IMG/VR virus record: IMGVR_UViG_3300032770_000045
Location: 1 to 42,477 of that record
Reading direction: 5' to 3' (one strand)
DNA: 42,477 nucleotides
Source: a virus
Shown here: positions 3,048 through 42,477 of the stretch, one piece after another
Numbering within the stretch: the stretch's first letter is position 1
Layout: every line of letters begins with the position of its first letter
Made by a program: the position numbers and the translations under genes
Notes under the pieces: model-generated
The model's input: the letters and a program-made list of their open reading frames with translations, nothing else
Told to the model about the DNA's origin: nothing
Database searches by the model: none

Positions 3048-4334
3048 CTAGGCGGTATAGGCCAATGTGCGATTTTGACCTCGGATGGCAATATCCCAAC
3101 CTATATTTTCCGAGAAGACAATCTCGTTGTATTGATTGAGGATTACCTGATCCGTCTGCACAATCTGGCTACCGGATTCCATAAGCATTTCAAGGCTAGC
3201 TGTTGCGTCTATTCCGCAAAGCGTATTGCTGGCGACGGTAGCATTATCCACCACAATGACCCCGTTTTGCAGGGTACGCACAGGAGAGAAAGTGACAGCT
3301 TCAGGGCGGTTGCTCTGGGTGATCACCGCCGGGGCAATATTAGCCGAGCCAGCATTCAGCAAAAACGTATCCACGATGCTGTTAGCTGTTGCCACAATGA
3401 CATTGCAGGTATAGGGTCTTGTCCACAAATAGCGCCATTTCAGGTACATTTTAAGCGTTAGCGCCCCGCCTGAATCGAGCGTGCTACCATTTGTATTGGT
3501 CGCCGCCGTACTGCCGTTACCGTCCCCGTTGATCAGGATGTTCACCGCGCTGAGTTCTTTATCGAGATCAGCTTTTTGGGCGATATAGCCAATACCCCAG
3601 GAGATCAGATCGATCCGCATACGACGCATTTGCTCATAGCTCACCCGCAAACTGTTCGCGTATTTAGTCACGCGAAAGCTGGACTCCCCCGTCGTAAACT
3701 GAAAAATGGCTGGTTCTGCGAATTCTTCAGTACGGGCTAAACGTGCCGCCGTCGCCGCCGCGCTGTCACTGGTTAGGTACAGCGCCGTGAACGTTTCAGA
3801 GTCAATCATCCGAGTACGGGCGATTAGGTACTCCAGAGCGCTAGGCTGTAGCTGCTGATAGCGCAGCATATCCAACACAGCGGGAGGATACAGAGTATAC
3901 GATACCGTTGCATCACCGGGGAAACGTCGCCCGGATTCCATCGCCAACATATTGGAGTTGTCCAGGCGAGTCCGTGCCCCACCTGACTTCCCTGTGATCA
4001 AGCTGTGCCCTAATGCGCGACCTCCAAAGCCTGATCCGACATAAGCCCGCCGCATAAACTCCGCTTTGAGGCTACGCCGTTCGTTGCCGTCTGCCAGCCC
4101 GGATAAATCATCCCATTTATCCCATGTATCCGCCATAACCCCGTAATCCGGGATACTAGCAGTGCGGACATTCAAGCGGGCTAATTGGCGTTCATAGGCG
4201 TCAAGCTCACTTGCTGGATCGGATAACGGGTACTTATTGGTCGGATCAAGCTCCTCCAGTTTAGCACTGAGGGTCTTGTTTTCTTCCCGCGCTTCGTCCA
4301 TGAGGCGGGTAGTCATTGCAAAATCAAAAGGCAT
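3048..4334 (-). CDS. Major capsid protein
   Basis: This 428-residue protein lies directly downstream of the protease and decoration genes, where the HK97-fold major capsid protein is expected. It starts with a charged helical stretch (MDEAREENKTLSAKLEELDP, residues 12-31) resembling a scaffold-like delta domain. A long capsid core follows, with typical features: ESSFRVTKYANSLRVSYEQM near residue 215, repeated aromatic and acidic motifs, and a C-terminal segment ending IAFSENIGWDIAIRGQN-like. Cleavage of the N-terminal part by the protease encoded upstream is expected from the family, but no cleavage site can be assigned by eye. Confidence 0.85.
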   Translation of the reverse strand: MPFDFAMTTRLMDEAREENKTLSAKLEELDPTNKYPLSDPASELDAYERQLARLNVRTASIPDYGVMADTWDKWDDLSGLADGNERRSLKAEFMRRAYVGSGFGGRALGHSLITGKSGGARTRLDNSNMLAMESGRRFPGDATVSYTLYPPAVLDMLRYQQLQPSALEYLIARTRMIDSETFTALYLTSDSAAATAARLARTEEFAEPAIFQFTTGESSFRVTKYANSLRVSYEQMRRMRIDLISWGIGYIAQKADLDKELSAVNILINGDGNGSTAATNTNGSTLDSGGALTLKMYLKWRYLWTRPYTCNVIVATANSIVDTFLLNAGSANIAPAVITQSNRPEAVTFSPVRTLQNGVIVVDNATVASNTLCGIDATASLEMLMESGSQIVQTDQVILNQYNEIVFSENIGWDIAIRGQNRTLAYTA

Positions 4335-6755: not shown

Positions 6756-7100
6756 ATGAAATTCTTGGGTGTCACAGACGAAATCACAACGTGTGAGCGA
6801 TGCGGCAAAAATAACCTAAAACGTACTGTTGCTATCGAAACCGAAACAGGGGACGTTGTTTATTATGGTTGTGACTGTGCAGCACGGGCTTTAATGCCCA
6901 CCGTCAAAGGCGTAAATACCCGCGACATAAATAAAATCGCAGACATTATGGCTTATGCCGAAAAATGGCTTAAGGTCTATAGCTTGGATATTGTTTGCAA
7001 TGGTATCTCGAACCGCTATGGTTATTCCGTCGAAGTAAAAGGCGACTGTATCCGCATGAAAACTATGGCAGGGGTTATCGAATTTAGAAAGAAAAACTAG
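6756..7100 (+). CDS. Zinc-binding moron-like protein
   Basis: This 114-residue protein is the only convincing gene on the plus strand. It has C13-x2-C16 (TTCERCGKNN) and C39-x-C41 (YYGCDCAARAL), a four-Cys zinc site within the first 45 residues, then a helical segment and a C-terminal beta segment (YGYSVEVKGDCIRM). Similar small proteins beginning FLGVTDE with this Cys pattern occur in phages and actinobacteria as far as I recall; no function is known to me. It has its own consensus promoter and ribosome site and ends overlapping the convergent portal gene by 4 bases. That arrangement is what is expected of a moron, an autonomously expressed extra gene. Confidence 0.85.
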   Translation: MKFLGVTDEITTCERCGKNNLKRTVAIETETGDVVYYGCDCAARALMPTVKGVNTRDINKIADIMAYAEKWLKVYSLDIVCNGISNRYGYSVEVKGDCIRMKTMAGVIEFRKKN

Positions 7101-9478
7101 CCAGCCCAAACCGCTGAATTATCTCCGGTATTTACCAAATTATTCCCAGTTAGTGCCCAAAAATGAGGACAATTCACATGTGCTGGGAAGTTTTGCAAGG
7201 TCAAGGCTTCCTGCATACTCGGAAATACCCCTTGATCAATAAAATCCTGACATTCATCATCAACCGCTGCCACACGGGGCAATACCCAGGCTTCCCCGTC
7301 AAGTTGATCATTATTGCCCCAAAAATCGGTAATCGCCCGACCAATAGTTGCCATCGTTTCGGTCATGGCGATTTGGGCTTGCTTCCAGGCGTTGCGCAGA
7401 GCTTCCCATTTCATCAGGCTATCCACAATCGCCCATAGAGTTTCATACCCCTGCTGCACAGCATCCCCGATAGCGGAAAACAAATCATCATGGTAAGTAC
7501 TGATAATTTGTTGAGCCGATTTTGTCGCATTATCTCTTATTTTCGCTAATGTATTATCCTGTATAGCCACTGGTTTATGGATTTTCAAGGTAGATAGATT
7601 ATCCTGAATGCTGGCTATATAGGTTCCTTTGTTGCCAACAAGTAAAGCAAACGGCAGCCCTATTTGGTCTTTACCGGATAGGGTCAAGTTTTTTTTTAGC
7701 CAGATGGTCTTTTCGGAGTCCGACATATCCTCCGATTGCTTCAAGGCTTCTGCTTTTGCCGCCTCATAGGTCGGTGTGATTGTCCCCGTTCGCCAATGTG
7801 CATATTCTTTTTGCATAGCTGCCCGCCGGGTTTTAATCCATTCTGGTAATTGCTCGACCGCGCCGGATTCATCGGGCAAGCTGTCTGAAGGCAATGCGGC
7901 ACGATTCCCGCTTACCTGTGCCGCGTTATTAGGTGTAGGCTTTGGCTCTGCTGTGGGCTTGAATGGCAATTGAGGCACTTGTGAGGCGTCTGGATTACCT
8001 GGATCAGTACCAGGAGCTATCGCAGGAGCTGCCGGTTTGACTTCCCCTGTAGCGTCGTGACCAAACAACTCGTTAGCCGCCTCATCCAAATCGATCAAGC
8101 CAGAATCTACCGCAGTCATGTATGTTATGGTATTTAGGTTGAAGGTTTGAGCGTCAAGATACTCATCGCTGGTTTTATGGTCATTAAACGTCAGCACAGC
8201 GTAGCTGTTCCGGCCCTTGACCCTCAAATAGAGGTTCAACGCCCATATCACCAGAATCTTGGCAAGCCGCTGGTAACTCTTGAGATTTTCGATGAATACC
8301 ATCCACTGCACAGTAGCGTGAGTAGTTGTCGCACCTTCATTGAAGCCTAGCAGGATCGGCAACTGTTTAGTCGCCGCTGTGTACTGCTGATTGAGTGCGG
8401 CAAATATCTTGTCTATCGGAAAAGCCACTTGACCAGGGTTAATAAACTGTGCCTCTACCATATCATAGTGTACAAAGGCGTCATCGGGGTTAAGGTTCTC
8501 AATGGTCGTTTGAATATTGGTGATATAGCCATCAATAAACTCTTGCTTGGCTATTTCCTGTCCGGGCAGGTTCAATTGAGGGTACAGGCTATCTATCGTG
8601 TTGCTAACCGCTTCCCCAATCATTTTCACATCAAGCCGAGGTGTGTTGTACATGTGAATGATCGCTTGCAGGTCTTTATAGAACTGCTGCAAGAAAAATA
8701 CAGTATCCAATACAGCTAATAGGGGAGATCGCCCAGCAGGATAATTGGTGCTGGAATCTTTACCGACATAGCGAAAACGCACGGGATCAAGCGGTACAAA
8801 CGGCCCGGAAATCAAAATACCCGGCACAAGGCGGTTATCCTCTGGATTCACCCAGAAGTCTATCAAACCTGGGTCCACCGGGTATACATCTTTAATATCC
8901 AATAAATCATCTGTCAACTCGACTTCACTGGCTGCCGCGCCAAACGTAAACAGGTTGAGCAAGGTCATAGCGATCATGAAGTCTACCCCAGGGAAATCTG
9001 AATCTTTACCCGAAAAACTGGTAAAATCATGTGCCCCGTTATACTCACTATATATCCTGGTGGCAAACTGCTGTACCAGTCTCAATCCTTCTGGGTCGGG
9101 CGTTGGATCATCATTATCCTCTTGCGCAGTGGTGCTTGCAGAAAACTTGCCGCCTGATTTTGTTTTGGTGTTTTTTGAGGCAGAACTCGGCAGCACCTGG
9201 AAAACCTCTAGCTTATAGCCGGGATTCCCCAGAGTGATGATATTCTCTACAGCCTTGCTGATGTAAGGGTCAAAATCTCGCATATCCTGAAGCATGGCAA
9301 ACAAGGTTCTGGAACGACTAGACGACCTTTTACCCATCGCATTCAGGCGTAATTGCAGGGCTTGTGTAGGTGCTGCCTCAAAAGTCGGGCGTTTAGCCGA
9401 CAGGGTTACTTTGCTGCCGTCAGGATTTACTATCGTCTTTGTCTTGCCGTCAGGATTTACAGGATAGCCGAATACCAT
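7097..9478 (-). CDS. Portal protein fused to a MuF-like head morphogenesis domain
   Basis: This 793-residue protein is much longer than typical portals (400-550). Residues 1 to about 480 look like a portal: RDFDPYISKAVENIITLGNP, the FTFGAAASEVELTDD and PVDPGLIDFWVNPE stretches, and a long helical crown region (AFPIDKIFAALNQQY, AATKQLPILLGF). A Pro-rich linker (about 485-545) separates a C-terminal domain ending DDECQDFIDQGVFPS and HVNCPHFWAL, the closing C-x-H signature of Mu gpF-like proteins. Those often follow the portal as a separate gene; here they seem fused. The protein forms the dodecameric packaging vertex. It is preceded by a decoration-like gene and terL lies 1.3 kb upstream. Confidence 0.8.
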   Translation of the reverse strand: MVFGYPVNPDGKTKTIVNPDGSKVTLSAKRPTFEAAPTQALQLRLNAMGKRSSSRSRTLFAMLQDMRDFDPYISKAVENIITLGNPGYKLEVFQVLPSSASKNTKTKSGGKFSASTTAQEDNDDPTPDPEGLRLVQQFATRIYSEYNGAHDFTSFSGKDSDFPGVDFMIAMTLLNLFTFGAAASEVELTDDLLDIKDVYPVDPGLIDFWVNPEDNRLVPGILISGPFVPLDPVRFRYVGKDSSTNYPAGRSPLLAVLDTVFFLQQFYKDLQAIIHMYNTPRLDVKMIGEAVSNTIDSLYPQLNLPGQEIAKQEFIDGYITNIQTTIENLNPDDAFVHYDMVEAQFINPGQVAFPIDKIFAALNQQYTAATKQLPILLGFNEGATTTHATVQWMVFIENLKSYQRLAKILVIWALNLYLRVKGRNSYAVLTFNDHKTSDEYLDAQTFNLNTITYMTAVDSGLIDLDEAANELFGHDATGEVKPAAPAIAPGTDPGNPDASQVPQLPFKPTAEPKPTPNNAAQVSGNRAALPSDSLPDESGAVEQLPEWIKTRRAAMQKEYAHWRTGTITPTYEAAKAEALKQSEDMSDSEKTIWLKKNLTLSGKDQIGLPFALLVGNKGTYIASIQDNLSTLKIHKPVAIQDNTLAKIRDNATKSAQQIISTYHDDLFSAIGDAVQQGYETLWAIVDSLMKWEALRNAWKQAQIAMTETMATIGRAITDFWGNNDQLDGEAWVLPRVAAVDDECQDFIDQGVFPSMQEALTLQNFPAHVNCPHFWALTGNNLVNTGDNSAVWAG

Positions 9479-10824: not shown

Positions 10825-12384
10825 TTAATAACTTTTGGGTACTTTTGTAACATTCAAACCAGAAGGGTGATTATTGCCCCTATTTTGCTTCTGAGGTACT
10901 CCTATGACCATTTTATTCATTGAAGGGGCTTGCTTGACGTTTTGGGCGGTAAGTTTGTTAAATGCGCCCGCCGTTGCATCCCCCTGATCTCTGTATTTTC
11001 CGTTGGGGATAGCGATCATTTCTTCGATGTACATCCGGTTCCAGTCACCAATTTTTAGCCGGACGTGACCCACCTGAGCTTGGGCAATGAAAGGTTCTAA
11101 TCGTACATCCTTAGAGCCGGTCACTTTATCCGCCTGCACAGTGAAGCCAGCCAAGTTCCTGACCGTATTTTCGGCGGATTCTTTGCCGCCTGATCCCGGC
11201 TCCTGTTCCGTCCAAATTGCCACATTGCCGTAGGCCAGTTGATCACGCCGTGCTGTTTCCAGGATTTTTTGTTCTCTGTCGGCAGCTTGCCATTTACCCA
11301 CTACCGCGTCAAGCACCCAATACCGACCATCGCTATCACGGGACATAAGGATTCCAGCCGTATTACAAGCCCCGTCACTTTCTGATCCCGCTTTATCCCA
11401 GTAACGACAAAATTTTGACAAGGGCTTATCAGGAATGTCAGCCTTAAGCATCTCTCGCTTTATACGTCCCCCCTCATCCGGTCTTGGCACGCCCTGATAT
11501 TCGGCAGCCCAAGCTTCTGTAGAAACTTCACCCTCATCGCGCCGATATTCCAATGTTGCCAATGAAATCACAGCAGGTGATAACGGCTCGCCAGCTTGCC
11601 GACCAACGGGATCAGGTTGCCCTATTTGGTCAAACATACCCAAATATTCGTTATTGCGATCTCGTACCTCCTGTGTTTCTGCAATAGCAGGCAGGCGTAA
11701 TAATGTCCATTGATCACCTGATTCCAACAATAACTGCCCCACTAAATCCGCCTCATGCCAACGAGTCATGATTATAACCGTAGCGGCATTCTCGCGCTTG
11801 CGATTTACGAGGTCGTTTTTATAAAAATTCTCAACTTTTCGGCGCATCGTAGGGCTTTGAGATTCTTCCCAGTTCTTATGAGGGTCATCAATCAGCACTA
11901 ACCCAAAACCGCGCCCCGTAACATCCCCACCAATACCACCCGCCCACATACCGCCTTCGTGCCCTGCTAAGTCCCATTTTCCTACCCCACGAGAACCGGG
12001 GCGTAAGTAGATACCCGGATAGATAGCCTGATACTCCTCAGAGTCCAGAATATCCCTTACCTTGCGAGACTTCGTTTCAGCCAGATCAGCACCATAACTG
12101 ACCACACATACAGGACGATCAGGGTATCGACCTAGCCAATAGGCTGCAAAACTCACACTGGTGAGCAAAGACTTACCATGTTGTGGAGGAGCCGTGATGA
12201 TCAAGCGCTGAATCTCACCGCTTGCCACACGATCCAATGCAGCCGCCATTACCCTGTGTGCCGCATCAATCACATATCCCGGCTGCGTCATAGCCGTGAA
12301 ATGAATAAGAGATCGCCGTGCTAGGGCTAATTCCGCTTCTCGCAAAAAATCACTACGGCTCAGTTCGGTATCAGCTAATTGCAC
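10825..12384 (-). CDS. terL: Terminase large subunit
   Basis: This 519-residue protein has the packaging ATPase and nuclease motifs. The N-terminal ATPase contains a Walker A-like APPQHGKS (residues 65-72), Walker B with LVLIDDP (Asp166, Asp167) and a coupling segment TRWHEADLVG near 208. The C-terminal RNase H-like nuclease shows RYWDKAGSESDG (Asp330), WTEQEPGSGG (Glu393) and RDQGDATAGAFN (Asp469). Length fits large terminases. It pumps DNA through the portal encoded 1.3 kb downstream. It is preceded by a minus-strand -10 box and a dyad motif, and upstream of those by a large palindrome. The subtype and DNA-end type cannot be told from sequence alone. Confidence 0.92.
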   Translation of the reverse strand: MQLADTELSRSDFLREAELALARRSLIHFTAMTQPGYVIDAAHRVMAAALDRVASGEIQRLIITAPPQHGKSLLTSVSFAAYWLGRYPDRPVCVVSYGADLAETKSRKVRDILDSEEYQAIYPGIYLRPGSRGVGKWDLAGHEGGMWAGGIGGDVTGRGFGLVLIDDPHKNWEESQSPTMRRKVENFYKNDLVNRKRENAATVIIMTRWHEADLVGQLLLESGDQWTLLRLPAIAETQEVRDRNNEYLGMFDQIGQPDPVGRQAGEPLSPAVISLATLEYRRDEGEVSTEAWAAEYQGVPRPDEGGRIKREMLKADIPDKPLSKFCRYWDKAGSESDGACNTAGILMSRDSDGRYWVLDAVVGKWQAADREQKILETARRDQLAYGNVAIWTEQEPGSGGKESAENTVRNLAGFTVQADKVTGSKDVRLEPFIAQAQVGHVRLKIGDWNRMYIEEMIAIPNGKYRDQGDATAGAFNKLTAQNVKQAPSMNKMVIGVPQKQNRGNNHPSGLNVTKVPKSY

Positions 12385-12440: not shown

Positions 12441-12479
12441 GCACAGCACCAACATAAACACCTAACAGCAGACGCAAGC

Positions 12480-12559
12480 ATTAGAATGTGTTCACTTGCC
12501 TCGCGAGATGTATAAGAACTATATATTACATCTCGCGAGGCAAGTGAACACATTCTAAT
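12480..12559. repeat. Large palindrome A, 33-base perfect arms
   Basis: The arms 12480-12512 and 12527-12559 are perfectly complementary and enclose a 14-base spacer (TAAGAACTATATAT). The inner part of each arm, TTGCCTCGCGAGATGTA, is identical to palindrome B at 24886-24955, while the outer 16 bases are unrelated to it. Each arm contains the self-complementary 8-mer CTCGCGAG. It begins 12 bases after the stop of the double helix-turn-helix gene and lies upstream of the terL promoter. No T-run follows on the minus strand, so it is not an ordinary intrinsic terminator. Confidence 0.95.
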
Positions 12560-12571
12560 AGTCCAGCCTGC

Positions 12572-12946
12572 TTAAGCAAAACTGATACCACAAGCTAGTT
12601 TAGCTTTGCGGATAGTGCTTTTGCTGCATCCATTGATTTCAGCAGCTTCTCGATCCGTAAGCCATTTGCGGGATTCATCAGCCTTAAACCATGCTATAGC
12701 AGCATTCAATTTGCGGGCTGGATAATTTAGCTTCTTTTTAGCCTTTACTGGCAAAGCCATTATTTTTTGATGCCAATAGGAATCTTGTCGTAAAATGCCT
12801 TTAGCTTTGGATGCGATAGATTGACTGCATGAAAAAATACCAGCAATCTGCTCATTGGTAAATTGGAAGCGAGTAATATCTTCTTTGAACCATTTCACAA
12901 TTTCGGGATATAAGATAGTTCTTGTGGTCTGTAGTTTCTCAGCCAT
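12572..12946 (-). CDS. Protein of two tandem helix-turn-helix units
   Basis: From the ATG at 12946 (AAGGAATCGAAGA leader) this 124-residue protein consists of two related units. Both have a Trp (W19, W86) followed exactly 21 residues later by Cys-Ser (C40, C107), within helix-turn-helix patterns FTNEQIAGIFSCSQSIASKA and LTDREAAEINGCSKSTIRKA. The same unit with the same spacing closes the primase (W1127, C1148). It is probably a DNA-binding protein, either a regulator or part of the packaging machinery, given terL next door. Palindrome A starts 12 bases after its stop and is its best candidate target. The start overlaps the upstream gene by 8 bases. Confidence 0.75.
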   Translation of the reverse strand: MAEKLQTTRTILYPEIVKWFKEDITRFQFTNEQIAGIFSCSQSIASKAKGILRQDSYWHQKIMALPVKAKKKLNYPARKLNAAIAWFKADESRKWLTDREAAEINGCSKSTIRKAKLACGISFA

Positions 12947-13130
12947 TCTTCGATTCCTTCTCAATATGCAACGTTAAAAGTTTGGTTAAAGCGCCTTCAA
13001 CCTCACTGGCTATAAAATCTACTTTCTGATCATGCTTGCTGAGTGTTTCGCCGTTCCTCACTCGCAATCCAGAGGCTTTCAAATGATCACGAACCATAGT
13101 CAAGGTTTGGGTTAGCATAGTTTTGTCCAT
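12939..13130 (-). CDS. Hypothetical small helical protein
   Basis: From the ATG at 13130 this is a 63-residue protein (MDKTMLTQTLTMVRDHLKAS...), mostly helical and charged, without Cys or membrane segments. Its leader contains a 17-base sequence spanning the ribosome site and start (13127-13143) that is repeated exactly at the start of the next gene (12943-12959). It overlaps that gene by 8 bases. No family recognised. Confidence 0.6.
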   Translation of the reverse strand: MDKTMLTQTLTMVRDHLKASGLRVRNGETLSKHDQKVDFIASEVEGALTKLLTLHIEKESKNG

Positions 13131-14223: not shown

Positions 14224-14258
14224 CTAAGCCTAACGGGTGAATAGATAGTTAGGCTTAG
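14224..14258. promoter_or_regulatory. Inverted repeat ahead of the membrane/coiled-coil gene
   Basis: CTAAGCCTAAC (14224-14234) and GTTAGGCTTAG (14248-14258) are perfectly complementary 11-base arms with a 13-base spacer. On the minus strand a TATACT hexamer (14262 down to 14257) overlaps its edge and the start codon lies 5 bases beyond the other arm. It could be an operator or an mRNA hairpin limiting translation of the next gene. There is no T-run. Confidence 0.55.
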
Positions 14259-14289: not shown

Positions 14290-14667
14290 TTAGTCGTGCA
14301 ATTCCCATTCTGCTGAATCATCTACAATGGATGAACGGGGGTTTTCGGTAGTATTCCAACTGCGCCAGGTCAGGCTATAGGCTTCCTCATCTTCTCCCAT
14401 GTCGATCACATCAAGAAGCTCCACCCATTGTTTGTTAACAAGTGTCGTATCCGTTGTTCTAATTATCATACCTTTTTTTAGTTGAGGCGTATGCAAGATA
14501 TTACCTGGATGTATTATAGGCTTCTCGATCAGGCTAATTTCTAATCGATAGTTGGATTCCTTGCCCTGGATGTTTAAGAACATCTGTGCCAAACCGGCGA
14601 CTATCACGTTTTGCAGTTCTTCTTCTGGCAGATAATCACCGAGATCGAAACTGAGTTTGATATTCAT
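14290..14667 (-). CDS. Hypothetical protein downstream of the partition genes
   Basis: This 125-residue protein follows the ParR-like gene by 2 bases and may be co-expressed with it. It is mixed alpha/beta (KLSFDLGDYLPEEELQNVIV, GNYRLEISLIEKPIIHPG-like, MIIRTTDTTLVNKQWVELLD) and acidic at the C-terminus. No known domain is recognised. Its stable place in the operon suggests an accessory role in partition or a linked early function; this is inference from position only. Confidence 0.6.
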   Translation of the reverse strand: MNIKLSFDLGDYLPEEELQNVIVAGLAQMFLNIQGKESNYRLEISLIEKPIIHPGNILHTPQLKKGMIIRTTDTTLVNKQWVELLDVIDMGEDEEAYSLTWRSWNTTENPRSSIVDDSAEWELHD

Positions 14668-14669
14668 AG

Positions 14670-15083
14670 CTATCTACGTTTACCTCCACCTTTCATAGTC
14701 GCTTTCATGTTTTCGGCAAAGACCTTGGTATCCTGATCAATCGCCTGGGTAATCTGTTCGGCTTGCTGGTGCGTGATAACTCCCTTAACTGCCATCGTTT
14801 GAATCGTGGTTTCAATGCTGGCAAAATGGGCTTGAATCTGCTCACTCAGTCCTGAAATAGCTTCCAGGACTTGAGTGAGTTCGGCCTGGGCGGGATTCGC
14901 CCCCTGCTCTCCCTGCTCACCCAAACAGAGCAGGGCAGTGACCAATACATTGGTATTGGTCATGGGTAAATCAGGCTTATCGGTATCCGGTCGGGTTTTC
15001 CAGTCCTCAAAAACTCGTCGTGCATCGCGCAAGCGCTGATTTTTGCCAGAGAAGTGAATCGAGACTATATCTTGATTACTCAT
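14670..15083 (-). CDS. ParR-like partition adaptor candidate
   Basis: This 137-residue protein starts with a short beta strand and a basic helix (VSIHFSGKNQRLRDARRVFE), as in the ribbon-helix-helix N-terminus of ParR/StbB adaptors. A flexible middle and a long helix (LTQVLEAISGLSEQIQAHFA) follow, and the C-terminus is very basic (MKGGGKRR). It lies directly downstream of the actin-like gene with an 8-base overlap, the usual parM-parR order. In type II partition, ParR binds a centromere and caps ParM filaments. Family similarity is weak by eye; the call depends on context. Confidence 0.55.
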   Translation of the reverse strand: MSNQDIVSIHFSGKNQRLRDARRVFEDWKTRPDTDKPDLPMTNTNVLVTALLCLGEQGEQGANPAQAELTQVLEAISGLSEQIQAHFASIETTIQTMAVKGVITHQQAEQITQAIDQDTKVFAENMKATMKGGGKRR

Positions 15084-16128
15084 AGGTGATCACCCCGGTA
15101 TCTTCAAACATCTTGAACTGGTTTGCCCCACCCCGCACGTTAGCAAGGTGCGCGAATTTATCGTCTTCTGCTTTATATACCGCTTCTGGGTTGAAATCCA
15201 GGATGGGTAATACATCCTCAAAAATGTCCACATAGCCAGCACCTGTGAGGATAATGCAATCCGACTGCGTACCCGCAAAAGCATATTTGGAATAACCACC
15301 ACTGAAACGATTCAGAAAGCTGGTTTTTTCGAGAGCTACCAAATCACGGCAGTCATAATCAGTACCTTTCAGGTTCAAAAACCCCGTTTTCAGGACACGG
15401 CGCAATCTATCTTGAGAGATACCTGCATTTCCTGCAATCAGCTTGCCAGCATATTCGGTTTCCAGGGCTTGGCGCAGGCGATCATAAACCCCGCTGATCC
15501 CTTCTTTGAGCGAATCCTGAATAGCGGGATCAAGTTTTCCATCGGGGAATAATCCTTGAAAATCCGTAGTCCCTCCGCCAAAATCAATGACCAAAATACG
15601 ACCATGTTGGGCGATATTCTTGCGGAGCGTACCCTCTTTGGTCAGCAGGACGTTCATCGCCCCGCCGACAGGCTCACAGAACATATAAGGGTTATAGTCG
15701 GTGTGGATATGTACCGTGCGGTTCTCCAGGGTAACGGTGTAATCATTCTGGATACTGGATTCCAAAGCATCCGTGAAATCAGCGTTACCTGGAGGATAGG
15801 CCAGATTATAGATCACGTCACAGTCTGTTTTAGACAGTCTGGCGATCATCACCGGGGCAGCAATACCTATGTACTTCTCGCTATATTTGGCTGCCCCTAT
15901 CAATGGTTTTTGAGTGCTGTGCCGTTCGGCGGATTCTCCAACGACATAGTATTTATCGTTGACGATCACATAGTCGGGGCTGAGAGTGTTCCCCCCAATT
16001 TTCTTGGCTTTCTCATAGTTCGATTTGGTGATTTCAACTAGCATATTAGGGATGCTAATTTCAGCATCCCCCAGCTTGCCTTTCCATTCATTATTACCCA
16101 AATCTCCGTGAAATTTCCGTAAGGTCAT
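15076..16128 (-). CDS. parM: ParM-like actin ATPase (type II partition)
   Basis: From the ATG at 16128 (GGGAGTC leader) this 350-residue protein has the actin-fold nucleotide motifs in order. Phosphate-1 is GDLGNNEWKG (residues 8-17), phosphate-2 is VIDFGGGTTDFQ (Asp182) and the adenosine motif is IILTGAGYVDI (residues 292-302). Length fits bacterial ParM/Alp-type filaments, which push replicated plasmid copies apart using ATP. With the ParR-like gene just downstream and an inverted repeat at its own promoter, it forms a plausible ParMRC operon. Phage-borne ParM-like proteins can alternatively centre DNA or form host-cell structures. An upstream ATG at 16233 is unlikely because it lies before the promoter's transcription start. 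Confidence 0.85.
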   Translation of the reverse strand: MTLRKFHGDLGNNEWKGKLGDAEISIPNMLVEITKSNYEKAKKIGGNTLSPDYVIVNDKYYVVGESAERHSTQKPLIGAAKYSEKYIGIAAPVMIARLSKTDCDVIYNLAYPPGNADFTDALESSIQNDYTVTLENRTVHIHTDYNPYMFCEPVGGAMNVLLTKEGTLRKNIAQHGRILVIDFGGGTTDFQGLFPDGKLDPAIQDSLKEGISGVYDRLRQALETEYAGKLIAGNAGISQDRLRRVLKTGFLNLKGTDYDCRDLVALEKTSFLNRFSGGYSKYAFAGTQSDCIILTGAGYVDIFEDVLPILDFNPEAVYKAEDDKFAHLANVRGGANQFKMFEDTGVITYE

Positions 16129-16143
16129 GGTAGATAGACTCCC

Positions 16144-16203
16144 GATTATTCTCAAATAAATAAAGATAGACAACGATATATAGAAGTATACCAGAGAATA
16201 ATC
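16144..16203. repeat. Inverted repeat flanking the parM promoter
   Basis: GATTATTCTC (16144-16153) and GAGAATAATC (16194-16203) are exact inverted 10-mers. One lies inside the promoter spacer and the other near the ribosome site of parM. This is the arrangement expected for an autorepressed centromere/operator bound by the ParR partner, although classical parC sites carry more tandem repeats. Confidence 0.6.
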
Positions 16204-16213
16204 AGGAAAACAA
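16185..16213 (-). promoter_or_regulatory. Promoter of the partition operon
   Basis: On the minus strand a TTGTTT -35 (16213 down to 16208), 17-base spacer and TATACT -10 (16190 down to 16185) with TGG just upstream, which gives an extended -10. It lies between the terminator at 16225-16247 and the parM start and is embedded in an inverted repeat. Confidence 0.65.
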
Positions 16214-16224
16214 ATAGCAATATA

Positions 16225-16247
16225 AAAACCCAAAGTTATTGGGTTTT
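16225..16247 (-). terminator. Intrinsic terminator after the ATP-PPase gene
   Basis: AAAACCCAA and TTGGGTTTT form a 9-bp stem with a 5-base loop. On the minus strand it is followed by TTTTTATATT, and it lies 12 bases after the stop of the ATP-PPase gene, closing the replication region. Confidence 0.85.
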
Positions 16248-16258
16248 GAAAATCTGAT

Positions 16259-17170
16259 TCATGTCATGCAAACGCCTTCATCACATGATTCGTCGGGTGT
16301 TGTATTAAGGTCGGATGCATCAACGTTATCTATAGTTTCTAATGGAACAGGCTTTCCTTTTATTTTCATGATATATAAGCGATCTTTACCCAGTAAAGAT
16401 CGCTTATTATTTATTGTCCGTTCAACATCCACTGTCGCCTTGAACAAATCGGGCTGGCGTTGCTTCTGCATAAGTCGCCGGGCAAAGGGCATAAACGGGC
16501 AAAACCAACAACTCGATTTCGGAGCCGGTGGCAATCCGGCTTCTGCAATAATACGCTCACAGTCTACCCGACTAAGGCGCAAATCGATAAGTGGATACTC
16601 TCGCTTCTTGTTGAAGCCAATTTTAGCGGTTTTCCCGTAGTTATCGTGCCACTGCACATCCCGCGCTCGTCTAAATTCATCGGTAGAGATACCCAACCCA
16701 ACGACACACCAATGGATAACCTTGTAGGACTTTATCAGCTTGTCCAGTACGAGAATCTTGAAGTCCTCCGTGCATGATCTATTGCCTGGTGCGCCACCCG
16801 GCATCCACGCCGGAATATCTACCGACCTATTAGGTCGGTAGATAGCTTGCAGCAGGGTATCCAGTGCCCCACCGCGCAACTTTTTTTGAGCGATAATAAA
16901 CACGATGCCATGCTTTTTACAAAAGGGCAGAATCACATCATTTATATAAATGATAGTATCAGGATTTTCTGAGTCGTCGCCCACATTACAAAACACAAAG
17001 GCGTGGTACGGTTTCGGTAATTTCCCCATTGATTGAAGGACTAAAACCGCTGTCGATTGAACCCCTCCTCCGAAACTGAAAACACGAAATGGGTTATCAG
17101 CGCTTTGTGTAATGCCCAACCATGTTAAAATAACATGCAAAAGGTTGCCTATAGAGCTAATAATCCGCAT
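16259..17170 (-). CDS. PAPS-reductase-like ATP pyrophosphatase
   Basis: From the ATG at 17170 (overlapping the polymerase end by 14 bases) the product is 303 residues. It carries the ATP-PPase P-loop FSFGGGVQSTA near residue 30, a CTEDFK motif in the middle, and a Cys-rich segment SCWFCPFMP, all typical of phage proteins annotated as phosphoadenosine phosphosulfate reductases. The fold is shared by DndC-type and nucleoside-modifying enzymes that activate a substrate by adenylation. The actual substrate is unknown. It lies at the end of the replication operon beside two methylase-like genes, so a DNA- or nucleotide-modifying role is plausible. Confidence 0.75.
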   Translation of the reverse strand: MRIISSIGNLLHVILTWLGITQSADNPFRVFSFGGGVQSTAVLVLQSMGKLPKPYHAFVFCNVGDDSENPDTIIYINDVILPFCKKHGIVFIIAQKKLRGGALDTLLQAIYRPNRSVDIPAWMPGGAPGNRSCTEDFKILVLDKLIKSYKVIHWCVVGLGISTDEFRRARDVQWHDNYGKTAKIGFNKKREYPLIDLRLSRVDCERIIAEAGLPPAPKSSCWFCPFMPFARRLMQKQRQPDLFKATVDVERTINNKRSLLGKDRLYIMKIKGKPVPLETIDNVDASDLNTTPDESCDEGVCMT

Positions 17171-19670
17171 AGCTAGACTCCATTTCATTAACATCTTCGG
17201 AGGAGGAGGGAGAACAGCTTGCAAATATCTGCATACACCATGCTATACGTTTCGGTAGTTTTTCAAGAGTAAAAGATCGTTGTTGATGCACGGAAATTAG
17301 TTGTTCGGCGGAGTAGCCTGTTTTCTCCTTCAGGTCAAAAAATCGGCCTGATTTTTGCCAAGCCAGTAACCACAGTCCGGGAACCCTGCACCATGTTTCC
17401 AGGGGGACTTCGATTTGTTGCGCTATAAGCTGATCCTCTTGCATGACTGGGATCATACTGTGAAACGTTTTATTGAGGGTATCATACAGGGCATTTCCTA
17501 GCCCCAGCATGGCTTGTTTTTCTTCTGGAGTATATTGGCTAGGCTGAATTCCCTTTCGCACGTTTTTTAACTCGTACCGAAAGTTAAGATCAGGAAAAGA
17601 GATAATCTCGGTGGTAGTAGTTGGTACAGCTACCTCAGGTATGTCGATAGGTTCAGGGGGGTCAGCAGGATCAGGCATTTCTATCAAATCCGGGTGATAT
17701 TGCCCTAGCCCCCATTTGTGCGAGTTTTCTTTCGAGTCAGGCTGTGCGATCCATTGGATCGCAGGGGCTGTGCGAGTGTTCATGGACTCTGGCACTACCG
17801 TTTGCATGATTTCACTGGCCAATGAAATAGCCTCCCGCCATTCCTCGTGAGCGACTTCCAAAATCAGGCTATCGTGAATCTCACAGGCTACGCGGGATTT
17901 TAAGCCCAGCTTCTCAAATTCCTCTGAAATCAGTACCATCGCTCGTTTGGTGATTTCTGCTACCCCACCCTGGCAAAGATAATTCCAGGCCGTATAAGAT
18001 CGATGTTTATCGACGGCAATAGGGCGTTTAGTCCACAGGTTGACCACACCTGATTGCTCCGCTTTCAGGCTGGCAGCTTCTTTAGTTTGTTTGATTTTTT
18101 GGAAAGCCTGATCTTTTCGCGCCAGGATGCTATAGGCTTCTTCTAGGGTAATCCCTAAAGACTTGGCGAGTTTTTTAGCGCCCATGCCGTAAGCTGTGCC
18201 GAACGTGATCGTTTTCCCTTTGAATCGCAGCGCCTTAATTGCGCTTTTGTCGCCTGTAGCTACTGTGCTGTGCCAGAGATCACCGAAATACTGCTCTGCC
18301 ATTGCGCTATGGAAATCTTGTGCGGCACAGGCCCGTGCCAGGGCTGAATCACCTGCAATCATGGCGGCTATCCAGTTTTCAGCGTTGCTGTAATCTAGCT
18401 CAAATAGGGTATAGCCATCCTGCCCCGTGAGTATGCCTGATAAGTTACCCGAAGGATCGTTAGATTCATTTACCATCTTGAGGTTTTGCAAGTTCGGCTG
18501 CGAACTGGCTCGCCGACCTGTATCAGTATGAACGCTGATCAAGCTATGAATTTTGCCGTCGTGGTGCGCATGGTCTAACAAGCTATTCAAGGTAGAAAGC
18601 ATGTTATTGACTTGCAGATAGCAGGCCAGAGGCAGCAACTGATCATGGTACTGAGGCTCCAAATCGATCAGCATTTCTACCGCGTCAACGCCAGACGCCA
18701 GATCACTAAGCTCTACTTTGACGCTATAACCGCCATGCGTTTCAGCGTGATAAAACCGTGCGTGCCCTCCTCTCGTGAATAGCGGGCTGTATTGCTCATA
18801 GTCCGGTAGGGGAATCTCAAGTTTCTGGTAGAGCCATGCGACACGAGATTTGGATGACCCCGGCATCGTGAGTCCCGCCTCTTGAAGCTGCGCGGATATT
18901 TCCCGCGCCATATGGGACAAATCGGCTATTCTGAGTTGGGTGTAGTCAAGATTGAGGGTAATCCCCTCACTTGCCATACGGCAATATTGGTGTGTAGCGC
19001 GGGCTTCCCAGTCTGCCAGCATATAGAGGGTTTCAGAGTTGATTAGGCTCTGCTGGGCATAATAGATTTGCAACGTCAAACACGTATCCTGGCAGGCATA
19101 ATCCATGACCCCGCGAATGGGTAAATCACTGATTCGGGCACGGCTGGATTTCATGGTTTTTTGAGATTCTGGGACAGGCAAATTCAGCATTTTAGCGGTA
19201 TCGAGTAAGCTGTACCCGCTATCTAATGTAGGGGTGAGCAGTCTAGCCATCGCCTGAGTATCATAGATATGCTCTGGTAGGTGCGTGTTTCCCGTCCATT
19301 TTGTAATGAGACGCATATCAAAAACAATGTTATGCCCGACGATCACACGGGAGCCTGTAAATAAATTCATCATGAATTCTTCAAAGGCTATGCTGTGCAT
19401 CTGATTCCCATGCACGCACAGTGTGGCAATATGGTCATTATCATGCCCCCAGGCAAACGAGATACACAATATATCAGTGATATAGCTCAACCCAAATTCA
19501 TGTTCGGGGCCGTACCCTGGGTAAGTAGTTTTGGTTTCAATATCCAGGCAGACTACGGGGCTGCTTAGAATATGATGCAACCGTTCAGGATCATAATCGG
19601 GTATCGTATCCTCATGTAAGGTGATCAGGGTATCTTGTGAAGTGCTTTTGGTCATTTTTTTAGGTGACAT
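17157..19670 (-). CDS. polA: DNA polymerase I (family A) with 3'-5' exonuclease and extra C-terminal region
   Basis: This 837-residue protein has exonuclease motifs CLDIETKT (Asp43, Glu45), GHNIVFD (Asn114, Asp118) and YACQD (Tyr191, Asp195). The polymerase part shows TGRRASSQPNLQN (384-396), motif A FELDYSNAE (Asp426, Glu431), motif B RFKGKTITFGTAYG (482-495) and motif C CEIHDSLILE (His599, Asp600). In motif C, Ser601 replaces the Glu usual after Asp. The N-terminal 5' nuclease of cellular Pol I is absent, as in phage enzymes. After about residue 645 an unusual 190-residue extension follows, with a Pro-rich linker (DPADPPEPIDIPEV) and a separate folded-looking segment. It is the replicative polymerase of the phage. 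Confidence 0.92.
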   Translation of the reverse strand: MSPKKMTKSTSQDTLITLHEDTIPDYDPERLHHILSSPVVCLDIETKTTYPGYGPEHEFGLSYITDILCISFAWGHDNDHIATLCVHGNQMHSIAFEEFMMNLFTGSRVIVGHNIVFDMRLITKWTGNTHLPEHIYDTQAMARLLTPTLDSGYSLLDTAKMLNLPVPESQKTMKSSRARISDLPIRGVMDYACQDTCLTLQIYYAQQSLINSETLYMLADWEARATHQYCRMASEGITLNLDYTQLRIADLSHMAREISAQLQEAGLTMPGSSKSRVAWLYQKLEIPLPDYEQYSPLFTRGGHARFYHAETHGGYSVKVELSDLASGVDAVEMLIDLEPQYHDQLLPLACYLQVNNMLSTLNSLLDHAHHDGKIHSLISVHTDTGRRASSQPNLQNLKMVNESNDPSGNLSGILTGQDGYTLFELDYSNAENWIAAMIAGDSALARACAAQDFHSAMAEQYFGDLWHSTVATGDKSAIKALRFKGKTITFGTAYGMGAKKLAKSLGITLEEAYSILARKDQAFQKIKQTKEAASLKAEQSGVVNLWTKRPIAVDKHRSYTAWNYLCQGGVAEITKRAMVLISEEFEKLGLKSRVACEIHDSLILEVAHEEWREAISLASEIMQTVVPESMNTRTAPAIQWIAQPDSKENSHKWGLGQYHPDLIEMPDPADPPEPIDIPEVAVPTTTTEIISFPDLNFRYELKNVRKGIQPSQYTPEEKQAMLGLGNALYDTLNKTFHSMIPVMQEDQLIAQQIEVPLETWCRVPGLWLLAWQKSGRFFDLKEKTGYSAEQLISVHQQRSFTLEKLPKRIAWCMQIFASCSPSSSEDVNEMESSYADY

Positions 19671-20906: not shown

Positions 20907-22895
20907 TTATTCCTGGGCTTTCTTAGGTTCGGGTAGAATATCGAGTGTGATAAATCTGGCGACTTCTTTCGTTGCCAGAGTATGCGTGATCATTTGAGCC
21001 GCTTGCCCCTTGCTCACTCCCTCCTCGTAAGTTACCCCCAGGCGTTTCAAATAATTGAGTTGACCAGGGGTAGCCGGGGAATACCGCCATGCCGCGTTTT
21101 TATCAATGGCTTTTTTGCTTTTCGATTCATTGGCTAATTTGACGGCTTCTCGCTCCGCATCAGCCATGAGTCCTGTGAGATCGGAATTGTATTTCAGCAG
21201 CTTAGGCGTGCCAGGGTATTTATATCCATTAGCGTTAGTCTCTTCTGGGACGTAATAGAGAGTGTAATTCTCTATTCTGATTAATTCGCGCATAAGGCTA
21301 TCCATATTACGGGCAAGTTGGGCGCGTTTATCATCAGGAACGCTGGCTACCATAGCCAGTCCAGCTTGCTGCCGTTCGCGAATTCGGTCTGCCTTGTCAG
21401 AATAAGTCGGGGGCATGATCACCAGGGAGCCATTATTGATCCCCGCGCTAGTGCTGTACCAGCCGTCTTTTTTGATAGTATCGGTATACCAAGCGGTGTA
21501 CAGGCTATCAAACAAGCTCCCGATCTCGTCAATGAGATCAGTCCCCTCCCCCCTGGTGTGCATATCTTCAAATAACCTGGGGCCTTTGGGGGCAAGAGGA
21601 TCAAGTTCTAATTCAAGCTCTTCTTCAGAATCAGCAGTCGCTTTGGTGGTATACCCGCACACCGGACAATTTTTAAAACCCTTGTAGAATTCCGCTTGAC
21701 ATTTGGGGTTGCGGCAAGTCACGGTCTTGCCCAGCAGTGTACCTACTTGCAAGGCTTTGGTATCCGCTACCGTGAGATCAACCATTAAACAATCCGTCTT
21801 GCCCGGAAAAGGTCGCAGTCCCCGCCCTATCGCCTGAGTAAGCACAATAGCGCTGCGGGTAGGCCGTGCCCACAGGATTGCCCCAGTCTCAGGAGCGTCA
21901 AAACCTTCTGTCAAGACTGCGTAATTGCTGATAATACGCACTTTCCCGGATTTATAGTCTCGCAGAATACCCCGACGTGTTTGTTTGTCTGTCTTGCCAT
22001 CGATATGTGCTGCTGCAATACCTAATTCCTGGAGTTTTCGAGTAAATAAGATACTCATCTCAACCTGGGGGAAGAATGCTAGGGTCAGGCGTCCTGTGGG
22101 TAATATCTTCTCTTGATAGGCTTTTACGGCTAAATCAATCCAGTTATCCGCTGTCAGCACCTCTACTAGCTGCGCTTTGCTGTAGTCACCTTGTTCTGAT
22201 TTGATTCCTGATATATCAATGTTGGTTTTTTGGATGAGTCGAGTAGGGCTTACTAGATACCCCCAGCGGATACCATCCTGGATAGTGGCTTCATAGGCGA
22301 TAGTGTCAAACAGCACGCCCAGGGCTTTGCCATCCCCACGTTTTGGAGTAGCCGTAAACCCGGCCACCCTCAAAGTAGGGTTAGCGTCTTTCAGGGTTTT
22401 AGCGATTTGCCAGTAAGTGTTATCGGCACTGACATGGTGCGATTCATCGATAATCAGGTAATCAATTTGTCCGTGTTTCATGATCTCGGCTAATCGCGCT
22501 GGGTGCAAACTTTGGCGTGTGCCTACTACAATTCTAGCGTTGCTGGCGTCCTGATTTGCCATGACAATCCCTATACCCGGCTGAAACGTTGGGCCGTAGT
22601 AGTCTTGTAGGCTTGCTCCGAATTGCTGCTGAATACGCTCAAAAAGCTGGTAGATGATCTCCTCGGTGTGAGCGATAACAATAGCGCGTTGAGTAGCCGG
22701 GGATAATACCAGTCTAAGCAATTCTGATAGGATAGTGGTTTTGCCTAGCCCGGTTGCTGCACTCACCAACGGGGTTTTACCCTGGCTCCAAGCCGTCATT
22801 ACCGCCGTGATCGCATCAACCTGATAGGGTCGTAAAACTTGCGCGGTATTGCTTTGGGTTTCTTTGGTGGTAGGGGGGAAGAGAGAAAAAGTCAT
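20907..22895 (-). CDS. SF2 DEAD/DEAH-type helicase with zinc ribbon
   Basis: This 662-residue protein shows SF2 motifs in order: Q-like LRPYQVDAI (21-29), Walker A AATGLGKTT (46-54), DESH (150-153), TAT (181-183) in GFTATPKR, and motif VI QAIGRGLR (354-361). A zinc ribbon follows with C394, C399, C410 and C413. The C-terminal 240 residues are helical and basic (including KSKKAIDKNAAWRYSPATPG) and probably bind DNA or a partner. It resembles type I restriction/UvrB-like SF2 helicases used in phage replication. Confidence 0.85.
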   Translation of the reverse strand: MTFSLFPPTTKETQSNTAQVLRPYQVDAITAVMTAWSQGKTPLVSAATGLGKTTILSELLRLVLSPATQRAIVIAHTEEIIYQLFERIQQQFGASLQDYYGPTFQPGIGIVMANQDASNARIVVGTRQSLHPARLAEIMKHGQIDYLIIDESHHVSADNTYWQIAKTLKDANPTLRVAGFTATPKRGDGKALGVLFDTIAYEATIQDGIRWGYLVSPTRLIQKTNIDISGIKSEQGDYSKAQLVEVLTADNWIDLAVKAYQEKILPTGRLTLAFFPQVEMSILFTRKLQELGIAAAHIDGKTDKQTRRGILRDYKSGKVRIISNYAVLTEGFDAPETGAILWARPTRSAIVLTQAIGRGLRPFPGKTDCLMVDLTVADTKALQVGTLLGKTVTCRNPKCQAEFYKGFKNCPVCGYTTKATADSEEELELELDPLAPKGPRLFEDMHTRGEGTDLIDEIGSLFDSLYTAWYTDTIKKDGWYSTSAGINNGSLVIMPPTYSDKADRIRERQQAGLAMVASVPDDKRAQLARNMDSLMRELIRIENYTLYYVPEETNANGYKYPGTPKLLKYNSDLTGLMADAEREAVKLANESKSKKAIDKNAAWRYSPATPGQLNYLKRLGVTYEEGVSKGQAAQMITHTLATKEVARFITLDILPEPKKAQE

Positions 22896-24248: not shown

Positions 24249-24804
24249 ACCACGCCCGCAAGAAAGTCAATGCTGCCAAATATAAATGCCCTTCACCTTT
24301 TTTCTTTAATACTCGTACCTCAAATTGCTCATCTGTCCCCCAAAAACACCCCGCTTTGATCATAAACCCACGATCTCTGACAACTGCATAGAGATCATCA
24401 CCCCGCGAACTCATCCCTGCCGCGCCGATGCGACAAATACCCCTTGCTCCGTTCAGGTTGGTTTCGTTCAGGTTGGCTCCGCTCAGGTTGGCTCCGCTCA
24501 GGGTGGCTCCGCTCAGGTTGGCTCCGCTCAGGTTGGCTCCGCTCAGGTTGGCTCCGCTCAGGTTGGCTCCGCTCAGGTTGGCTCCGCTCAGGTTGGCTCC
24601 GCTCAGGTTGGCTCTGTACAGATCGGCTCCGCTCAGGTTGGCTCCGCTCAGGTTGGCTCCGCTCAGGTTGGCTCCGCTCAGGTTGGCTCCGCTCAGGTTG
24701 GCTCCGCTCAAGGTCGGATTACCGTTTTTTCCCGCATTGTTGATGAAAGCTGTTAATCCCTCTTTTGATAATTTTGCCAAATCTTCACGCATTTTTGTGT
24801 TCAT
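24223..24804 (-). CDS. Pentapeptide-repeat protein with a C-terminal conserved phage domain
   Basis: From an ATG at 24804 (or the internal ATG at 24792, which has better-spaced GAAAGG) the protein has a short leader, about 17 pentapeptides mostly ANLSG with one ADLYR, and a 75-residue C-terminal domain ([34 protein letters not shown]). That C-terminal domain resembles the SRGD-CFxGT-containing end found on other prophage pentapeptide proteins. Pentapeptide solenoids fold into right-handed beta helices and in some cases mimic DNA at gyrase. The 15-base repeat makes the gene prone to length change. It has its own promoter. Confidence 0.8.
24446..24714. repeat. 15-base tandem repeat coding for ANLSG units
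   Basis: The plus-strand unit CTCAGGTTGGCTCCG recurs in near-perfect tandem through the gene, with a few substitutions such as the copy giving ADLYR. The high DNA identity, beyond what the protein requires, indicates recent expansion by slippage or recombination. Confidence 0.9.
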
Positions 24805-24885: not shown

Positions 24886-24955
24886 ACTATCACCATTTGC
24901 CTCGCGAGATGTAATATATAGCTCTTATACATCTCGCGAGGCAAATGGTGATAGT
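24886..24955. repeat. Large palindrome B, 28-base perfect arms
   Basis: The arms 24886-24913 and 24928-24955 are perfectly complementary around a 14-base spacer (ATATATAGCTCTTA). This spacer is the reverse complement of that in palindrome A with one change. The inner 17 bases of each arm equal those in palindrome A and the outer 11 differ. It begins 16 bases after the primase stop and lies upstream of a promoter, in the same layout as palindrome A. There is no T-run. Confidence 0.95.
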
Positions 24956-24971: not shown

Positions 24972-27900
24972 TTAGATTCGGGGATGTATTATGGCTTTGC
25001 GGGCACGTCGCACGGTGGTTAAGCTGCATGTAAATAGAGTAGCGATCTTGCCATCGGCTAGGCTGGCGCGAGTGGGGTCAGCCTCTAGCCAACGGGTGAT
25101 TTTATGTAGAGGGGATTCGTTATCTTGCTTAGAATCCTGTTCAGATTTACCAAAACTGGTAATCGGGCTGTGATTACCGGGTGCAAACCACATACCGGAG
25201 GCTTGAGGGGCATAGATTGCACTAACCCGCTTATAACTATCGAGTGCCGTGCTTTCGGCGCATCCTGTGACTTCCTGGAGGTGTTTCAGGTAATCTATCT
25301 GGATGATCTCCCCTCGTACCTCTATCGCCTGCTTGAATAAATCATGCCCATAGCTATCGAGAGTAAATTGATAGGTAGATATTAAGGTCTCAACATGAGG
25401 TGTCACGGGGAATTCACTCGCACTATAGATGAATTTGGGTTCAGGGCTGGTTTCTGCCCGAATTCTTTCAGCATCTTGCCACATTTCTGATTTTATGCTA
25501 TGCAAATAAATAGCATTCACGCGGGTATCCTGATAACCCTGGTAACGATAAGCACGAGGCTGTTTATCAACCGGATCACGGTAGCCGGGATAGTCAGCCT
25601 CAAGCATAGTTTTTTCAAAACTCACAGGAATAGAATCACACCAATACCAAACTTGCGCCATAATTTGTAGCTCAATAGGGGGGATAAAATGAGTCCCGAT
25701 GGTCAACTCGGCTTGATAATTTTCGAAGTCATTTTTGCCACGCAAACCACCAAACCACTGCACTGCTACCCCTGATAGGCTTTTCGTTGCATCTACCCAC
25801 CTTCTGAGGACTTCTGCGTGTGTTTTATAAGTTACTACTAGCAGGCTATTATTGTGTTTTTGAGCAAGCAATGTGATTAGGCGCTGTGCCATTTGGATTT
25901 TTGCTGGGGTATCCAGGATTGAGAAGCTATCTGGGTCGATCTGTATATCCTCTAATCCTGATGCGAGAGGGATAGGGATCAGTGTCCGGCTAGTTCCTGT
26001 AATAGGTGGGTTAGCTGATTTTTGTTCTGATTCTGGTTTTTTAAAAGACTTGCGAGTATTAAGACTCCCTGCAAATACCGTGACTTGTGAATTCGGTTGT
26101 ATCTCAGCTTGATAGATATATCCCAGTCTAGCACGACCTTGCTTGTCTTCCAGGCTTCTGGCATATTGTATAGGCTGCCCAGTAATCTGATCAAGCAGGG
26201 GTGTAGCATCGTTGATCACCAATTTGGTATCGCGGGTGAATGCGAGTCCTTGCATGGTATACACACGCAAGCCACGCGAATAGGGGATCAGCCTGGAATT
26301 CCAGACCAGGGCTTGATTAACCCAATAGGTCAGGTATTCATGCCTGAAGATTGACCAGAAATCCCAGAGCCAATGAATAAGCAAGGATTCACCAGCTTCT
26401 AGCGAATCACCTTGCAGCGTATCCTCTGATAAAGCCCGAATGAGCGCCGGGTCAAGATCACAGAGTTTTTGAGTAGCTTGGGAATCATTGGCATTAAGCA
26501 GGGCTACCAGGTTTTGCATAAGCCATCTGCCTCCTAGCTTAACGGTTTTTTCGGTAGGGTATTCTCCCGATTTGACAGTAATTACCCCGTTCATGCTGAT
26601 CACACCCTTCAGGCAAGTGCATAATAATTCCAATAATTTGACTTGATCGGGGTATTGATCTTCATATTGGGTTGTCTTGCTCGGTAATACAAAATCTTTG
26701 AGTTCTAGTAATCTGAATTGGGTTAGGATAGGTAATGGTGTCTCATCAATCCCTATATATTTTCTACCCCGAATCACTTCCTCGACTTGCATATGCTGAT
26801 GCCGGTAGATTACCAGGGGTGCTGACCGGGCCAGTTTTTCTTGAGAGAGATAGCCCGACCCCTCACAAGTAGTTTTAAACTTGCAGGTTGTTTTACATAA
26901 GGACCGTTTGACGCTGTAGCCCTTGCTGGCGACTATATCCGCCAGTTTCAGATTTTCGCAGTTGTTTTTATTACGGGACTCAAAAAAATAAACTAGATTT
27001 CGGGGTAGCTTGAAGTGATCAATTAGCGAATCGGCGGAGCCATCATTAAACAATGTGGCATAAGCGACTACGCCCCTATAATCAATATTGTCACCTGAAT
27101 CCTGATTATCTTTGAATTTTTGCCAATGATCGCGGGCAATTTCGATAAGTTCTTGTAACAAAGCATAGGTTTTCCCTGTTCCGGGTGGTGCGGCATTAAG
27201 AAAGTAGGTCGCCATATGGGTTTTATTGGGGTTGGTCAGGTAGGTATGCAGAGCTACCCGCTGTTCTTGTCGGATTTGATCGCGGGTGAGATAATCAGGG
27301 GTAATTGGCTGGGCAATATCTGTCTTTATTTCAGGCGTGATTACATGCGATCTGGCATGGTTCACCCCCTCTTGCCCAGCTTGCCAGTTCGGATTAGCTT
27401 CTCTGGCGTAATAGAACACACTGGCTAAGGTAATCAGGGTGTGCTTAAAAGACGCCCATTTTGCTGCACATTCACCCGGCTTATAGGTATGCCCTCGGCT
27501 TGACCAGGAATCCCAGAGAGCCAACCCTAAATCACCGAGTGAGGTCTTGAGTCCCATGCCAATTTTTAGCCATATATCATATGATGAGTCTGGGTTGATC
27601 TGATCAAGTGCTAATAAGGCTAATGCACTATCTCTATCAAGATTATCCGATAAGCCAACCCCGGAAAAAATATGGCTAGAATCACTGAAATCAGAGGATA
27701 TTGGAGCAACAGCACGGATTTCAGCCAATGAATAAGACTTATCAGAATCATAGATAATCCGGGCTACCGCCCCGGCCCGGTCAGGCTTGCGATTAATAAA
27801 TCCGGGGAGTCTCAGCACGCGGGCAGCTTCAAACACGCTGGAATCAGTTAAGCTAGAAATAGGATGAAATAATGCGGTAACTTGGGCTTTATAATCGCTA

Positions 27901-41975: not shown

Positions 41976-42419
41976 TTACCCCGGCTGCAAGCGATCAAAT
42001 CGAATTTCATAGAATTTACCTACTGCCCAATAATTGATTTTTTGGACAGTCATAATCTCTTTATGCCAACGCCCCGGATTGCACCAATAAACATGCCATC
42101 CTGGAATTGCCCAATATTCCCCTGTGGGGGTACTGGTACATAAACATGTTTCTACCAAACTAGACCCCTGTTCGGCTAGCAATTTGCTGGTGCTTACGCA
42201 GACTATCAAATACAGCACTTTTGCCGAGTCTACGGGGCTAGTATTCTCATCCCCACCCGCCATGCATTGCCATAAGATGTAATTATCTATATCGCCTGAA
42301 TCTGCCTGTTTTTCATGTATTTTGCCTTCTGACCATGCCATAATATCGCCTGAAGCGCGTAACACCGCATCCAGAGCTTTATCAAGGCTGATCATCGAGT
42401 CGTTTATGTTGATAGGCAT
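41976..42419 (-). CDS. Tail terminator / completion protein
   Basis: This 147-residue protein starts MPININDSMISLDKALDAVL, followed by a beta/alpha body (VLYLIVCVSTSKLLAEQGSS, WAIPGWHVYWCNPGRWH). Its place between the gp10-like gene (across the circular join) and the tail tube gene matches the tail terminator that caps the tube. The start codon at 42419 corresponds to position 68 of the left end. Confidence 0.6.
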   Translation of the reverse strand: MPININDSMISLDKALDAVLRASGDIMAWSEGKIHEKQADSGDIDNYILWQCMAGGDENTSPVDSAKVLYLIVCVSTSKLLAEQGSSLVETCLCTSTPTGEYWAIPGWHVYWCNPGRWHKEIMTVQKINYWAVGKFYEIRFDRLQPG

Positions 42420-42477
42420 AATAGTTAGTTAATAGGCTATTTTACAAATACATCCTTGAAGAGATAGCCATAGTTAA
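42352..42477. repeat. Terminal direct repeat, right copy
   Basis: This is the right-hand copy of the 126-base overlap with bases 1-126, differing at 42466 and 42477 (both a). It shows that the gene at 41976-42419 follows the gp10-like gene at 86-457 on a closed circle. Confidence 0.9.

Follow-up and report, generated by a model that had tools for sequence, protein, structure and literature searches.

A divergent ParM-like gene pair in an uncultivated tailed phage: a probable partition module and a possible phage-plasmid lifestyle

The actin-like gene and its overlapping neighbor

The minus strand of IMGVR_UViG_3300032770_000045, a 42477-bp viral record in IMG/VR from an uncultivated tailed phage, carries a parM-like gene at positions 15076-16128 whose 350-aa product is a predicted actin-like ATPase. 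The whole record was analyzed and is referred to here as the window. We assigned the gene from PHROG 691, NCBIfam ParM and its predicted fold. The protein matched PHROG 691 ("partition protein") along its length (E=1e-23) and the NCBIfam ParM model PRK13917 over residues 9-333 (E=5e-7, under the model's curated cut-off). The initial annotation of this DNA had described an actin with intact phosphate-1, phosphate-2 and adenosine motifs, and all three are in place (GDLGN, aa 8-12; VIDFGGGTTDF, 180-190; ILTGAGY, 293-299). The gene thereby shares with type II (ParMRC) systems an actin-like motor with intact nucleotide motifs, its ATPase activity being predicted from sequence.

Structural comparison gave a consistent picture. 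In a Foldseek search using an AlphaFold2 model built from four sequences (pLDDT 77, pTM 0.74), the top match was the ParM of pSK41 (E=9e-19). VIA-align placed the model at Z scores of 24-26 to Ta0583, CorM, pSK41 ParM and Alp7A (24 for the last three), and at about 20 to MreB and Hsp70. The protein is clearly actin-like and nearest to the ParM-type branch, but its identity to the ParM proteins used for comparison was no more than 20-26%.

The 3' end of the parM-like gene is overlapped by 8 nt by a second minus-strand gene (14670-15083) encoding a protein of 137 aa, which we treat as a candidate ParR-like adapter. Another gene in the same run, encoding 125 aa with no family (14290-14667, minus strand), begins right after its stop. 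A hairpin with a perfect 11-bp stem, a 13-nt loop and no T-run (14224-14258) lies between this third gene and a membrane-helix gene with a probable true start at about 14219.

The overlap with a downstream gene had been noted before and holds, but the description of that gene as ParR-like found no family or profile match. A family search with the 137-aa protein gave no match and a homologue search found none. Aligning it with hhalign to a profile of adapters neighboring ParM gave no signal, a comparison that a single-sequence query makes uninformative. A sequence search of the PDB returned only chance immunoglobulin matches, which we rejected. The structure prediction proposed earlier was carried out as a single-sequence AlphaFold2 model (mean pLDDT 61, residues 1-18 under 50). 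It contained predicted helices at residues 14-29, 41-56, 64-99 and 105-131, the first two following a possible strand at low confidence, and no strand was modeled; a ribbon-helix-helix (RHH) fold was not established. In RHH proteins the ribbon forms only in the dimer. Foldseek output from this low-confidence model was not interpretable.

Position is thus the main evidence that makes the 137-aa gene the natural adapter candidate. As in type II loci, the motor lies directly upstream of a small gene, a resemblance that covers position and size only. Small genes occupy the same site after ParM, in the same order and with the same spacing, in plasmids of Ligilactobacillus, Secundilactobacillus and Lysinibacillus and in three viral contigs.

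The leader and other DNA elements

Upstream of the parM-like gene is an A+T-rich leader (16129-16215, minus strand) with candidate promoter(s), operator and centromere. The initial annotation had given the operon its own promoter after a terminator. The second part of this claim is borne out by a terminator-like hairpin with a T-run (about 16223-16245, minus strand, z -2.7) that ends the upstream transcription unit and separates the operon from a phosphosulfate-reductase-like gene, but the match to a promoter consensus was no commoner than in shuffled sequence. The upstream gene (16259-17224) is phosphoadenosine phosphosulfate reductase-like (PHROG 424, E=5e-23) and possibly has an auxiliary or DNA-modification role.

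The exact inverted 10-mer reported in the leader is real. Its downstream arm (16140-16153, exact core 16144-16153) is just upstream of, and touches, the parM ribosome-binding region, and its upstream arm spans 16194-16207 (exact core 16194-16203), both on the minus strand. The exact 10-nt pairing extends to 13/14, and such a pair occurred in 1/1000 dinucleotide shuffles of the 92-nt region. Also in the leader is an extended -10, TGGTATACT, preceded by TTGTTT at a distance of 17 nt, giving a second candidate promoter (TTGTTT-17-TATACT with extended TGG). One arm of the inverted pair falls at a candidate -10 and ribosome-binding site and its partner within the spacer of the second candidate promoter, an arrangement that would suit autoregulation of the operon.

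An 8-nt direct repeat, GTCTATCT, occurs in the leader in two copies 32 nt apart. Regular iterons were not above chance (47/300 shuffles), and the centromere is therefore a candidate only; we hypothesize that the leader acts as parC. An Rfam search gave no match.

Two long, near-perfect intergenic hairpins lie elsewhere in the genome, at 12467-12572 and 24886-24955 (-73 and -51 kcal/mol; z -13 and -12). They have a common 48-bp core with one difference, in opposite orientation, and outer stems that differ yet stay complementary. Together they hold all four CTCGCGAG sites of the genome, and they bracket the partition and replication (early) genes. Phage records contained no match to the 48-bp element, and a search of IMG/VR for it as an exact 17-mer was likewise negative. 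An array with a 15-bp period (24386-24770) codes for a pentapeptide-repeat protein.

A closed genome with replication and virion genes

The record ends in direct repeats (1-126 and 42352-42477, unstranded) that are identical at 124 of 126 positions. The IMG/VR entry lists no end repeats, presumably because of the two mismatches. When the map is closed, the gene at 41976-42419 starts 17 nt past the stop of a neck/tail gene (86-457), giving an unbroken tail operon. On the basis of the terminal repeat and this continuity at the junction, we consider the record complete, about 42,351 bp long and, as an assembly, circular. A closed map suits a circular plasmid and, just as well, a linear virion genome with circular permutation; it therefore does not discriminate between lifestyles.

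The minus strand carries nearly all of the genes, which include those for TerL (10825-12384), portal (7097-9478), major head protein (3048-4334), tape measure (38593-40932), a PolA-type polymerase (17157-19670), a helicase (20907-22895), a PriCT-2 primase-like protein (24972-28469) and a GH25-like lysin (32704-34554). Two DNA methyltransferases are also encoded. A weak helix-turn-helix match lies at 12572-12964, and a gap between genes of the minus strand holds a plus-strand ORF of 114 aa with no family match (6756-7100).

The earlier statement that no integrase is visible was upheld, with no match to tyrosine or serine recombinase families (integrase, resolvase) in the complete genome. No HTH_3 (CI-type) repressor was detected there either. 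The recombinase and HTH_3 searches gave matches in 13 to 14 of the 14 genomes used as controls. No Rep initiator family was found among the proteins scanned. With respect to the definition of a phage-plasmid as a tailed temperate phage lacking an integrase, the genome thus has virion genes, no integrase or resolvase match and a closed map, and no HTH_3 repressor.

The phage is a singleton. Searches of viral contigs with ParM, the adapter, portal and PolA confirmed no close relatives. TerL gave relatives in viral contigs at no more than 24-37% identity; those tested had no PHROG 691 match, although most are fragments. The best TerL matches, at about 36% identity, are spread over bacteria and methanogen viruses and point to no particular host. 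A single-protein search of genome contigs found nothing. An alignment-based search of genome contigs recovered three loci, one on a Ligilactobacillus contig (L029) and two (L028, L030) that encode Hsp70-like proteins and were rejected as ParM relatives, their kinship being at the superfamily level only. The viral-contig and genome-contig searches thus turned up neither a host nor an episomal relative.

Possible roles of the module

We favor, at a probability of roughly 55%, a divergent two-gene type II (actin-type) ParMR module that probably maintains an extrachromosomal circular prophage, or phage-plasmid. The ParM-like protein would polymerize with ATP and move the copies of the circular phage genome by pushing or pulling. 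As a dimer, the 137-aa protein would bind the A+T-rich leader with its inverted pair, connect this DNA to filaments of ParM and act as a repressor of the operon. Given that no integrase was detected, such a module would most likely serve to pass on a circular prophage stably outside the chromosome.

Several features fit a plasmid prophage: an actin motor placed ahead of the candidate adapter, a leader that looks autoregulatory, a map that closes and the lack of an integrase. The reading is built on observed features (the actin-like gene with its predicted fold, the motor-first arrangement and gene overlap, the inverted pair in the leader, closure of the map and the lack of a detectable recombinase), from which we infer polymerization, DNA binding by the 137-aa protein, a centromere and a plasmid stage. 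Plasmid prophages commonly have a repressor, a Rep initiator and a resolvase. Against the reading stand the lack of a match to any of these three, of iterons above chance in the leader and of a host or episomal relative in the searches, as well as an adapter whose fold and DNA binding are putative and a lytic-style set of PolA, helicase and primase. The initial annotation's view of circular-plasmid maintenance as the simplest reading is fair, but its wording that the operon "points to" this lifestyle goes beyond the evidence, since no iterated parC, repressor, Rep or resolvase was found.

Known systems offer partial parallels. The ParMRC loci of pSK41 and R1 likewise have an actin-like motor gene first, a small overlapping or adjacent downstream gene, an upstream regulatory leader and a motor fold that the model of the phage protein matches. 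They differ in that identity is about 11-19% in structure alignments, the phage's downstream protein has no recognizable ParR homology and its leader has no iterated parC repeats. CorM/CorR of Anabaena (PDB 9rmi) is a close structural match (Z 24), a likeness that comes from structure only, at about 15% identity. Phage-plasmids are described as usually having no integrase (PMC12977533). The Bacillus phages with ParM and an RHH protein, including IEBH and B83, are established plasmid prophages (PMC8026635); like the phage studied here, these two are tailed and have a ParM-like gene with a small partner. No recombinase is listed for IEBH (PMC8026635), as none was detected here, whereas B83 has Xer recombinases. 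We found no sequence relation between either phage and ours.

A less likely alternative is that the actin-like protein, together with its partner, serves to position or move the phage's DNA while it replicates lytically, in the manner of AlpAC or PhuZ, with no plasmid stage. PhuZ plays a comparable role in jumbo phages. Replication and virion genes dominate the genome and no repressor was found, both of which favor this alternative. It also has an experimental precedent in an actin-like phage protein that serves lytic replication (PMC4446434), and partition genes alone do not ensure a plasmid prophage (PMC8026635). Our phage resembles corynephage CGP3, the source of AlpAC, in having a phage-encoded actin-like protein, a partner gene in the same run (cotranscribed) and candidate sites in the leader. 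However, the adapter precedes the actin in alpAC (PMC4446434) but the actin is first here, as in ParMR loci; no multiple alpS-like repeats turned up in the leader; and CGP3 is an integrated prophage.

It is unlikely that the inverted pair is an operator only and that the real centromere is at another site, such as the two long hairpins with the shared 48-bp core. The leader does have a single inverted pair and no iterons, and if the repeats that encode the pentapeptides are set aside, no repeated DNA sites in the genome are stronger than the hairpins. In known ParMRC systems, however, parC adjoins the operon, and nothing ties the hairpins to the partition proteins. We also think it rather improbable that the locus is a ParM-type module with a new, non-RHH adapter, by which a phage lacking lysogeny genes positions its DNA during infection. 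A remnant or repurposed actin-like gene, with a neighbor that is no adapter and an operon without a segregation role, would suit a 137-aa protein that matches nothing and models at low confidence, but is improbable given the intact nucleotide-binding motifs, the full-length predicted actin fold, and an overlapping gene and palindromic leader that resemble a maintained unit.

If the favored reading of a ParMR module maintaining a circular prophage is true, a highly divergent phage lineage would be added to the phage-plasmids with actin-type partition, so far documented mainly in Bacillus. This would be a modest extension of a known idea and no new mechanism. A partner without recognizable ParR homology could, in addition, broaden the known range of adapters.
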